64,000 bases of DNA from positions 1,730,501 through 1,794,500 of the forward strand of contig OX359193.1 of the NCBI GenBank assembly GCA_947172415.1, read 5' to 3'. Under the pieces are notes generated by a model. That model was not told the DNA's origin and searched no databases. It worked only from the letters and a program-made list of their open reading frames with translations. Position 1 is the stretch's first letter, and every line of letters begins with the position of its first letter. Source of the stretch: Chondrosia reniformis (Eukaryota; Porifera; Demospongiae; Chondrillida; Chondrillidae). Shown in pieces: positions 43,801 through 49,800 of this stretch. The translations under genes were made by a program, and so were the position numbers.

Positions 43801-46800
43801 GGTGTTGGCAAGGGTGATCCGAAGATTATCCATCGACTGAGCTCCTCTGTCAGAGTCTGATAGGCTGACAGTACCAGTGATTTGGACTGCAGGGCCTTCT
43901 TCCATAAACACTGTCTCATAGTCCAAAGTCCCACTTCCATCTACAACATTCAGATCCAGAATGGGTCTGTTGTCATTCACCAGGGTAACTAGGATGCTAA
44001 TCTGAGGACTGTTACTGTTAAAGATGCCATCTGACACAACAACTGATATTCTTCTCTCTTCACCAAATGGCTCCTCTTCACCGTTTGTGAAGGTGAGAGA
44101 GCTAAGAATGGAACATGCAATAGAAGTGTTGAAGGATCCCGAAACTTGTAAAACTCTCCCTCCATTTTGCAACAGCACACTGATACCTGGTGTGTTGCTA
44201 GACAGCGTGACAGAGAGGCTGTCTGGGTGAGTAGTGAGAGTCATATCAGCATTCAGAATGCGAGCAGTAATCATGACAAGATTGAAGGTGTCGGCATCTT
44301 CAACACTTCCCAATGGTGGCACAAACACTGAGTCAGTTCCTTCAGTGAACGTAACAGATGAAGGCGCTCCTGAAATCTGGGGAGGATTATCATTGACATC
44401 ACTAATTAAAATGTCTACTGCAGCGGTCGAGGAGAGGGAAGGGGAACCATTGTCTGTCACCATGACAACCAAAGATTCCATTTCAAGGCTTTCCCTATCA
44501 AACACTTGTAATGTTGTAATTTGTCCATCCTCAGGATTGATACTAAATAAGCTTATGTTCCCAGATGAAATTGAAAAAGTAAATATGGAATTGGGATTTG
44601 AACCATCTCTATCACTAGCTCCCAAAGTAGGGCTGACCATTACCATAGTACCCATCAGGCTGTTTTCAGTTACTATGGCAACATAACTCTCAGAAGTAAA
44701 CAGTGGTGCATTGTCATTCACATCAACAACAATGATGTGCACAGTTGTGGTTGCTGAGAGAGAAGGCACTCCACCATCCCTTGCTGTTACTGTGAGCATG
44801 TATTCTGACACATCTTCGTGATCCAGAGATTCAGTCGTGACTGTCTGAATCTCCCAAGGGAATTTCCCTGAGAAATGGAAAGTGTGATGTCACCACTGAC
44901 GCCTCCATCTTGGTCACTGACAGCTAGTTGTAGTACAGAGGAACTGGCGGCAACATTCTCCATTATGCTCGCTTCATACTCAATTTGACTGAACATTGGA
45001 GGAAATTCATTGGACTCCACTACAGTAATCTGAACTGTTGCCGTGGAAACAAGGGAAGGTGTGGCCAATGAGTTTGTAGCTGTTAAGGTGAGAGAATACA
45101 TTTCTTGAGATTCAAAATCCAGCCGACCAATCAGAATGAGTGTTCCATTTTCAGAGTCCAGTTCAAACAGTCCATTTTCGTTACCAGATACAATAGCATA
45201 TGACACAACAGCATTGTCCCCAGTGTCAGCATCACTAGCTAGCACTTCATCGATAACAAGAGGAGGGAGGGAGGTCTCGGACAAGACATAAGCCAATACA
45301 TCAGAAACAGTAGAATTCTATTCTACACCAATTGGACCGGTCACTTAAAGGGGAACTGACACCAAAAATAAGTACCCCTCAAAATTTTAATATCGTTATA
45401 AAACTTACTAAAATGAACGTTGGTAGTGATCTCGGCGCTTCGTTTGACAGCAATCGATAAAAAGAGAGCGTCGAAAGTCGTTAAACGTCATCATTTCCGA
45501 CGCCATTTTATTTGCGGCCGATGCGTCACAAAACGTATATGGTAGCGTGGGCGTAAGACGGCATACGTTTGGGTCACACGGACAATGCCCTACTGTGTCG
45601 CTTACGGTTGTTCTAACAGCACAGACAAGGACTGCCCAGGGGTAAGCTTCCATCGTCTTCCTCTGAAAAATAAAGCTTTACTTAAGCAGTGGTTGGTTGC
45701 ACTGAAATTGGAAGAAGTACCCATTAATGACCCCAATGCTAGAGTATGCTCTGAGCACTTTAGTAAGAGCTGCTTTAGTACAAACCTGCAAGAGCAACTT
45801 CTTCAGCAGCCAGGAAGAAGGTGGTTAGAAAAGGATGCTGTGCCTACCATCTTTTCCTTCAACCAGTTGCCCAATCTCAGCCAGAAAAGACCTCTCAGTG
45901 AGAGGAGAAGTGAGAGCAAGAGAAGAAAGGAGATTGTAGAGGAAGCACTGCTAATTCAGTCATATTCTGAGCCAACAATTGAGGAAGACAGGCAATCTAA
46001 AACAGTGGGGGTACAAACGGGTATGGAGATGCAAACCTTGGTCTTACAACATACCATATAGCAGGAATATTTCACAAAGTTTAATGTTTGTGATTTTTTC
46101 AATTTGACTAAATTCACCAAATTTTCTTTTTGATCAGATCAATGGCCACCTGTACCAGATAGGACCAGCTGTTTTGTACAGACATTAGAAACCTGTCTGC
46201 ATGTAGCCCCAAAGGAGTACACATCCAGCAGTACCCAGACAGAAGATGATGATAGCGTTTCAGTACCATCCAGCACAGATGAGCCAATGGAAAGGTATAC
46301 TTAGTTTGTAGAAATTATATGCATGTCATGCAATTGGCATGTATATACAGGATGGATTTTCAAAGTAATTCCCTGGATGAAACCTATGATGAGAATGATG
46401 AAAACGAGTCAGATGAGGACTCCGAGTTACAAAACAATCCATCCAGGCAAAGAAAATACATCGTTTTTGAATCAGCCTTGCTCCCCCTTTTTAAGCATTG
46501 TAGATCCTGTGGTTTACCAGTGACGTTGAGCACTTCTATGTGTGGTACATTACTGGTTATCAAGGGTAGTTGTCCTGATGGCCACATAGTTAATTGGCAG
46601 TCTCAACCACTTATTGGTAGAACACCTGCTGGTAATCTCTTACTTGCAGGTGCCATTCTCTTCTCTGGTTCTACATACACTAAACTAGAAACTATAGCTA
46701 ACCTACTAAACCTAGCCATATTTAGTGAACGTACATTCTATAGAATACAAGAAGCACGCTTATTCCCATTAGTTAATTCCTACTACAAAGACAACCAAAT

Positions 46801-49800
46801 AGTAATAGCTGAAATGCTTAGAGATAGTGGTCCCTTAATTGTGTTTGGTGATGGCTGTTGCGATAGTCCTGGGTATTGTGCTAAATATTGCACCTACTCC
46901 TTGATGGACAATTCATCAGGCCTCATTATAGACTACAGTTTGGTTCAAGTTACTGATACTGGGACCTCAGGGACCATGGAGAGAGAGGGGTTGAGACGCT
47001 GCCTTACTAAAGTTCTTTCAGAATTTAATTTAAACCTTGGAACTTTAGCAACTGATAGACACAGACAAATATCTGCTGTTATGAGAGCAGATTACCCAAA
47101 CATCATTCACCAATATGACGTTTGGCATGTCAGTAAGAGTGTCACAAAAAAGTTGACCAAGGAGGGCATTAAAAATGGTCATTCTAGTCTTTTACCATGG
47201 ATTCAGTCAATTTCCAACCATTTATGGTGGTCGGCAAAAACATGCAACTCGAACCCTGATGTTCTAGTTGCCAAATGGTCCTCAATTGTACACCACATTG
47301 TCAATGTTCATACTTGGCAAGATGATCACTTTTCATCATGCCAGCATGAATCTCTTGACAATGCACAACGCCGTACAAAATGGCTGAAACCTAATGGCCG
47401 TGCCCACCTGGCTCTCCAAAAGGTTGTGCTAAAAGAAACTTTGCTAAGGGATATAGCAAAGTTAAGCAGCTTTTGTCACACTGGCATGCTGGAAGTATTC
47501 CATTCCCTGCTGACCAAGTATTGCCCAAAACGTCAGCATTTTAGTTTTATGGGAATGTCTATACGCACTGAGTTAGCCATATTGGATCACAATTACAATG
47601 TTAATCGGGGGCAGGCAAAAACTGCAAATGATACTCTACGATACAAACTGGAGTTTTCTAAGGCAACCAAGAAATGGGTTGTAAAACCAATTAAGGAAAA
47701 CAAATCGTATGAGTATCTACATGATATGCTTGAGCTGTTGGTTGATCCACAAATTCATGCTGCAGCATCAAACTTAGATGACTCAGATGTAACTGAACTT
47801 AATTTACCTGATAATATAGCAGCACTGCCACGTCCCAACAAACTAGATTCAATTTCTCAACACACCACCCGTTTTGGTATATGATTATGATATCGATATA
47901 TTCGTCAATCAAATTGTTTGCAGTTATTTGATTAATTAATTTTACCATGGAAATTGAGGATTAATTGAATGTTCTTTAAATCCTACGTATACATTTGAGG
48001 GCTCAGGAAAATGACTCCTGATTGATGCCACAACACAAGATGGAATCACTTTACGATTTCTTATTCCAAGTTTTGTATAAATAAACCATGTAAATTGCCT
48101 GTACGCAGCAAGTCTGTAACATCTGAAGAAAAGATTGAAATCATGCATGTATTAAAGGCACAAACACTGAGCTACAGCTAATCCACTTAATCACACTATA
48201 TTACACTAATTAAATCCATCATACACATGTAGCTGCATGTACCTGTTAGTTATCGGATCAGGGACTGGTGCAAAGCCAAAGTCCACCATTGCAACTAAAG
48301 CTGTTTCTAGCACAGCTGTGTTTAAGCAAACATTTTCGTAGTTTTCGGTTTCCGTAATACAATTGTGTTCCGCTAGCTTCGCTACTACTTGAGTTATTTC
48401 TTTACAACAGATGTTCTCCCTTTCTCGCTCCATAGTCACGCATTTTCCGCAAGTACAACAAGAAACAGTATCATCGTTAATTCTCGCAGTTGAAGTAGAC
48501 GATTCATCCTCGGAAGAACTCGATTGTTCTCTATCTTCGTTAGAATACGTCGGTTCGAACTGGTAAGGACGAACAACGGCCATCGTGAAAACTACCAATG
48601 ACGTTTTAACCACAAAAAACATGGCGGGTGGGAGGCGGATTTTATCGCTCTGGTATTTCTCAAGTATAAGGTCGAATCAAATTTAAAACCCGAAAATGTG
48701 AGTAAGACATTCGTATGTTTCCATATTTGTAATAAAATTGGACTCGAAAATTTAGGTGTCAGTTCCCCTTTAATACTTGCGTTGCACATGCATGAAGAGT
48801 GTTACATGTTACAAGTTACCTGTGAAGATTCAACCAATGGAATAAGCTGGTCCTTGCTTTTTGTCTTCTTTGGAGGTACAACTGCCAATTTCTTCAGTCT
48901 CGCAGCCAAAGACTCAGCCTGTGATTTTCGCCAAAACAATGTCGACACCACTGGAATACGGTCCCTAAATAAAGAAAACACTTTAATTGCATGACAAATG
49001 AAACAGTTTGATAACAGCTATTAATCTCACATCATAAGTCTATACCTAAGCACACAAATTTAAAGTATTTTAAATATACAGACATTCTTCAAAGTAAATA
49101 TAGAGTATCATTGAATTAATGAATATAAAAGTTTACGAAAGGTAACAGGTTGAATACACATACGTATGTACGTACGTATATTGGAGGTACGTACATAAAT
49201 TCAAAGAATTGCCAAAGATTTCATTACTGAAGAAGATTTGGAAGGTTAAAATGTCCAAATATTTTTTTGAAATGTAGCTGATGCTGAATATATAGACCTT
49301 CCATATTCATTATGAATGTAATAAACATCCCTTACTATTAACCATATGTACGTATATATATAACCATATGTACGTATATATATAATATACATTTCTGATG
49401 TTGTTATAACTGTGGAAAATAGCTAACAGTGCAAATTCTCTCGCTTAGTGATGCATACAACTTGTGTAAAGGATTCTGACAGCTTGACAAGCATTGTACT
49501 TTATTTTCATTGAGCTATACTGTAAATGATCAATTAATTTTAATAGTAATGCTACCATGGTAACTATATTAATGGAGTCCTAATCTAATACGTACAGTGT
49601 GTTCTGAGTATTTGAGACTGATTAAAATACTAAACTATCTGAGGATGGATGGAACTCACTTTGATTTCTTATGTGATTGCTTTAGCTGTGACTTCTTATG
49701 ACCTACTGTCAAAGAATGTACACAATGATACAATGTGATAACACCATTTGACTAAACACATACAGTACGTACATTATTGTGATATACGTATGTACGTACG

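Follow-up and report, generated by a model that had tools for sequence, protein, structure and literature searches.

Kolobok transposons of the Kol0 lineage, reported from vertebrates, annelids, cnidarians and sponges, encode KolX, a protein described as clearly similar to the ballast of the P2X7 receptor and as having a fold with seven conserved cysteines (Kojima & Bao 2022, PMC9587614). The same account derives P2X7 from a P2X4-like gene that fused with KolX, and proposes NANOR as a domesticated KolX. Rump et al. (2020, PMC7016195) report ballast proteins across animals (including a sponge) and propose capture by a P2X4-like gene; outside vertebrates the zinc cysteines are retained, as are two GDP contacts, R546 and R578, joined by H547 in a sea urchin and an acorn worm. 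The P2X7 ballast binds a guanosine nucleotide (PMC7016195, PMC9859053), and GDP binding by ballast proteins is posed as an open question by Rump et al. (PMC7016195). THAP domains are documented in Kolobok transposases (PMC6004289). Here, a 3,421 bp element is described at positions 45349-48769 of a 64,000-nucleotide stretch of the genome of the sponge Chondrosia reniformis (referred to as the window), which is likely an autonomous-type Kol0-lineage Kolobok that has inserted into a cadherin-type gene, within a short intron, and carries a THAP/DDE transposase together with an accessory KolX that would act for the element.

A further comparison is the Drosophila P element, whose target site differs from the TTAA of Kolobok elements and which is not known to carry KolX. 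It resembles the window element in its THAP domain and its RNase H core with insertion domain, and it has short non-autonomous derivatives, such as KP, that encode repressors, but the GTP that positions its ends is held in the insertion domain of the transposase itself (PMC7776569). Stand-alone ballast (ZCD) proteins such as NANOR are, like KolX, short and with the ballast at the C-terminus, but are reported as genes rather than as transposon parts (PMC7016195). With the Kol0 type element (Kolobok-1_XT), no difference in kind was found in a comparison by published description, which covered the shared features: the TTAA duplication, 5′-RR/YY-3′ ends, a DDE transposase with DxxH motif and zinc finger, and a second protein with the ballast fold.

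Anatomy of the element and its two proteins

The original prediction had placed two convergent, uninterrupted spliced genes between TTAA-flanked 15-bp inverted repeats, and this anatomy was confirmed (Table 1). The inverted ends match at 15 of 15 positions and, together with the TTAA, form a 23-nt inverted pair that is 96% complementary and ranks top of the seven pairs in the region. Since a 19-bp pattern of TTAA plus end (one mismatch permitted) occurred 29 times in the 117-Mb genome while its reversed-pattern control occurred 0 times, this pattern is not due to chance. The TTAA duplication is present in all four near-full copies of the element and in both copies of a sister family (see below), and the window and the three other near-full copies all start with AG and end with CT, i.e., the 5′-RR/YY-3′ termini that distinguish Kolobok from piggyBac. 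Three plus-strand exons are spliced into a 708-aa transposase and two minus-strand exons into a 173-aa KolX, with 57 bp separating both stop codons. The splice sites are predictions from reading frame and consensus, and the GT/AG dinucleotides of both genes are kept in 4/4 near-full copies.

Table 1. Coordinates of the element's features in the window.
Feature	Position	Strand	Basis
Left target-site duplication, TTAA	45345..45348	no strand	Sequence comparison of ends
Left terminal inverted repeat, 15 bp, AGGGGAACTGACACC, 5′-AG terminus	45349..45363	+	End comparison, end-pattern search
Transposase exon 1, THAP DNA-binding domain	45585..46020	+	THAP E=3.5e-17
Transposase exon 2	46138..46294	+	Open frame; AG/GT borders in 4/4 near-full copies
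Transposase exon 3, DDE core with DVWH and H2CH motifs, stop 47882-47884	46351..47884	+	Residue alignment, predicted structure
KolX exon 2 with stop	47942..48122	-	Gene model
KolX (P2X7-ballast-like) exon 1, start codon at 48583	48243..48583	-	Gene model; P2RX7_C match of spliced 173 aa
Right terminal inverted repeat, 15 bp, CT-3′ terminus	48755..48769	-	End comparison, end-pattern search
Right target-site duplication, TTAA	48770..48773	no strand	Sequence comparison of ends

The predicted identity of the longer product as a Kolobok-type THAP transposase was equally borne out. Next to the THAP domain, it carries the Kolobok core, i.e., the DDE residues, a C/DxxH motif and a zinc finger ahead of the last E. 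D171, D235, D256, H320, C330, H332 and E381 are present in 42/42 aligned transposases, and D171, D235, DVWH (256-259), H2CH (315/320/330/332) and E381 are each found in 40-42 of these 42 proteins, the first catalytic Asp being either D167 or D171. The predicted structure (pLDDT 84.5) matches the fold of the ISCth4 and Hermes transposases; the P element transposase is absent among its best 50 fold matches, which excludes nothing. A search of Protein Data Bank sequences with the transposase profile returned a single match to an unrelated chain (E=0.37), regarded as noise, and a Pfam 'Mutator' match of 23.8 bits fell under the 26.5 cut-off and was not used for family assignment.

The homology of the 173-aa protein with the P2X7 ballast also stood up to scrutiny, as the Pfam profile P2RX7_C matched spliced KolX with an E-value of 1.9e-19 (70.8 bits vs. 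a cut-off of 23.5), and the fold predicted for a relative agreed with that of the ballast. P2RX7_C is the only Pfam domain found in KolX, with no fused P2X channel domain, so that it differs from the vertebrate P2X7 ballast in being free-standing and without a channel. In an alignment with P2X7 of 27 ballast proteins, transposon-borne or otherwise (window KolX and 26 of 31 search matches, after removal of five partial or near-duplicate rows), window KolX has all seven zinc-site cysteines (C477, C479, C482, C498, C499, C506 and C572), each of them retained in 24 to 27 rows out of the 25 to 27 that have a residue at that position. It further shares R546, Y550 (26/27 proteins), P570, R578 and, as predicted for the relative, the overall fold with P2X7, and is presumably a zinc-binding helical seven-cysteine domain. 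The GDP binding of P2X7, which the original prediction mentions, should not be extended to KolX: among the five guanosine contacts only R546 (27/27) and R578 (22/25) are widely retained in the aligned proteins, as opposed to H547 (3/27), R574 (0/25) and K583 (1/23), in agreement with the pattern of Rump et al. (2020). Window KolX retains the same two arginines, with H547 changed to Leu and with C573, R574 and K583 replaced.

Copies, gene association and selection across the genome

A DNA search of the genome (contigs of which are referred to as C1, C3, C4, etc., and loci extracted from it as L071-L077) yielded four near-full copies including that of the window, the other three being 94-98% identical; identity to the window copy was 98.7% for C4:2987371, 97.8% for C5:3775403 and 95.4% for C11:2711087. 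All four have TTAA on both sides and differ in their flanks, all four have KolX inside the inverted ends, and the ends of the three other copies match at 14, 13 and 14 of 15 positions. The window copy and C5:3775403 have open frames for both genes. There is also a sister family, whose ends are AGGGGAACTGACATC, in two copies (C1:7695989-7699427 and C3:7656119-7659557), and since these are identical at every base over the 3,431-bp element but share their flanks only at chance level (104/381 and 203/800 matching), this family has transposed very recently in the genome. Its KolX gene model is open, as are transposase exons 1 and 3 as separate exons. In a third family, located on C12, KolX is an open frame of one exon and the transposase region is broken by stops and extra sequence. 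One end pair spanning 105 bp (C12:2136205-2136309) resembles a remnant of the miniature inverted-repeat transposable element (MITE) type, and 954 bp between two matching ends at C2:7050175-7051128 contain a THAP match, with no catalytic or KolX match in the searches made.

Genome-wide, KolX matches cluster into 34 places, 22 of which lie within 4 kb of a transposase catalytic match and seven more within 6 kb of a THAP match only (50 of 125 THAP matches were used in this pairing count). In 28 of these 29 paired places the orientation is convergent. The remaining five have no catalytic or THAP match nearby, and the nearest of all THAP matches on their contigs is 7.8 kb off. Conversely, KolX lies within 4 kb at 22/30 catalytic-core places. 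These counts answer the check set by the original prediction: KolX is a regular component of such elements, and not an ordinary host gene.

Seven loci (L071-L077) have THAP beside KolX exons with no catalytic domain found in between, and look like internally deleted elements. TTAA and inverted ends were found at five of them and not at L071 and L075. L072 (803-2147), L073 (515-2389) and L074 (376-2263), located on C9 and C8, have the end AGGTCCACTGTC in common and belong as copies to a single family, possibly KP-like derivatives that may encode regulators; L076 (477-2533, i.e., C9:2457876-2459932) is TTAA-flanked with ends AGGGACACTCCAG and has THAP and KolX exons with no catalytic domain found in the searches made. 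L077 (823-2137, on C11), TTAA-flanked with ends AGGGTATATGACA, has its two ballast exons on opposite strands and is thus rearranged. The THAP frame of L077 extends into an HHTRF motif resembling the Kolobok C-terminal tail.

When the window family was compared with the sister family, KolX (173 codons) showed a Ka of 0.31 and a Ks of 1.70, i.e., a ratio of 0.18 (bootstrap 0.08-0.31, with 472/500 resamples usable), and transposase exon 3 (471 codons) a Ka/Ks of 0.14 (0.10-0.19), revealing purifying selection on KolX between families. The transposase ratio within the family was 0.36 (0.15-0.93). We read this as KolX having been maintained, over longer times, about as strictly as the transposase.

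Possible roles of KolX and competing explanations

THAP domains bind DNA, RNase H cores cut and join DNA, and TTAA is duplicated upon insertion. In the favored reading, the THAP domain would bind the element ends and the RNase H core of the transposase would cut and join DNA, with KolX working alongside the transposase for the element itself, most likely as a structural part of the DNA-protein complex or as its chaperone. On balance, we lean towards KolX acting in or on the transposition complex. The two-protein system of the original prediction is supported insofar as both genes travel together; that KolX assists the transposase is plausible, as suggested by co-occurrence and selection.

It is improbable that KolX is an essential second transposition subunit in which a nucleotide or phosphate is still bound by a conserved pocket of arginines (at the R546 and R578 positions, together with Y550). 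If true, KolX would supply from a separate protein what the built-in GTP domain of the P element supplies in one chain, and the guanosine site of P2X7 would be a leftover of transposon biochemistry. Such a nucleotide role is attractive, but its support is weak given the loss of three out of five guanosine contacts; binding by another mode is possible. None of the terms GDP, GTP and guanosine is used in the main text of Kojima & Bao (PMC9587614), and a KolX-GTP link was not sought beyond the papers cited.

KolX might instead be a regulator that keeps down the activity of its own element or works against host silencing, an explanation we consider unlikely, although P elements set a precedent for element-encoded repressors and the TTAA-flanked L072, L073, L074 and L076, with inverted ends, THAP and KolX exons but no catalytic core found, recall the KP-type short P elements (PMC7776569). 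Since internal deletion alone spares both end genes, however, their retention of KolX needs no function, and the core-less elements differ by too few changes (0-4 synonymous and 0-6 nonsynonymous per comparison) to test selection. The original prediction had presented the ballast gene as a stand-alone passenger or accessory gene; nothing supports an unusual passenger, as KolX is the standard second protein of Kol0 (PMC9587614). A host gene caught by one element and carried unused is very improbable: gene uptake does occur, given the different accessory proteins across Kolobok lineages (PMC9587614), but KolX takes the same convergent position at nearly all paired places, is conserved between families and is known as the Kol0 second protein in several animal groups (PMC9587614). 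That the ballast gene belongs to the host and is overlapped or neighbored by the insertion is scarcely credible, despite the stand-alone ballast genes in many animals (PMC7016195) and the five isolated KolX places mentioned above, as it lies between inverted ends in copies with different flanks, and as two of these five places are themselves DNA fragments, 83% and 93% identical, from the window family or one closely related to it.

Several observations weigh against an accessory KolX in an autonomous-type Kol0 element. KolX is broken in two of the four near-full copies (C4:2987371 and C11:2711087), though the transposase is broken there too, and 8/30 catalytic-core places have no KolX inside 4 kb. 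The between-family KolX ratio is rough because a Ks of 1.7 is near saturation, and the comparison of window KolX with the C5:3775403 copy (two synonymous and six nonsynonymous changes; ratio 0.83, 0.17-2.86) shows no constraint by itself. Moreover, the window copy may be inactive despite its open frames, since Cys occupies two nearly invariant positions. In the transposase, this Cys (46856-46858) sits between two conserved aspartates, two residues past Asp167, where 40/42 aligned proteins have Arg and the only other Cys row is P0032, a protein 98-100% identical to the window transposase; in KolX, the Cys (48458-48460) lies before the first zinc cysteine, where the other 26 of the 27 aligned ballast proteins have Trp. 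Finally, the assignment to Kol0 is a probable one that draws on KolX and element features, and the function of KolX is putative.

Insertion locus and relation to P2X7

Joining the flanks at one TTAA yields a 77-bp intron (CAG|GT...TAG) within a minus-strand gene that encodes cadherin domains downstream of the element (Cadherin E=2.8e-27). Elsewhere in the window, tandem-repeat open frames at 13667-14256 (LQSLWV..CPDRT units) and 24939-25589 (GGPTYYP-type units) are probably minisatellites.

Around the only P2X place detected in the genome, at C5:6394884-6396740, the nearest 1.8 Mb contain no ballast match, which is consistent with a P2X-ballast fusion being absent from the genome searched. In a tree of 29 ballast sequences (P0022 and P0028 were excluded as incomplete), the stem leading to P2X7 measures 3.34 changes per column and groups with unnamed long branches; because of this long-branch joining, of which the tree program warned, the tree identifies neither the donor lineage nor the direction of capture. 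The suggestion that the P2X7 ballast was captured from a transposon holds and had been published before (PMC9587614), so it is not new.

While the P2X7-KolX homology and its capture are already published and the element is known in kind, the novelty lies in a well-preserved member whose sister family moved recently, together with evidence of selection retaining KolX. The element is a clean, well-bounded example of the kind of transposon from which the P2X7 tail is presumed to derive, and its sister family, whose two copies are identical and have both genes open, provides material for asking whether transposition needs KolX. Such a requirement would reveal the role of the ballast before it became part of a channel.
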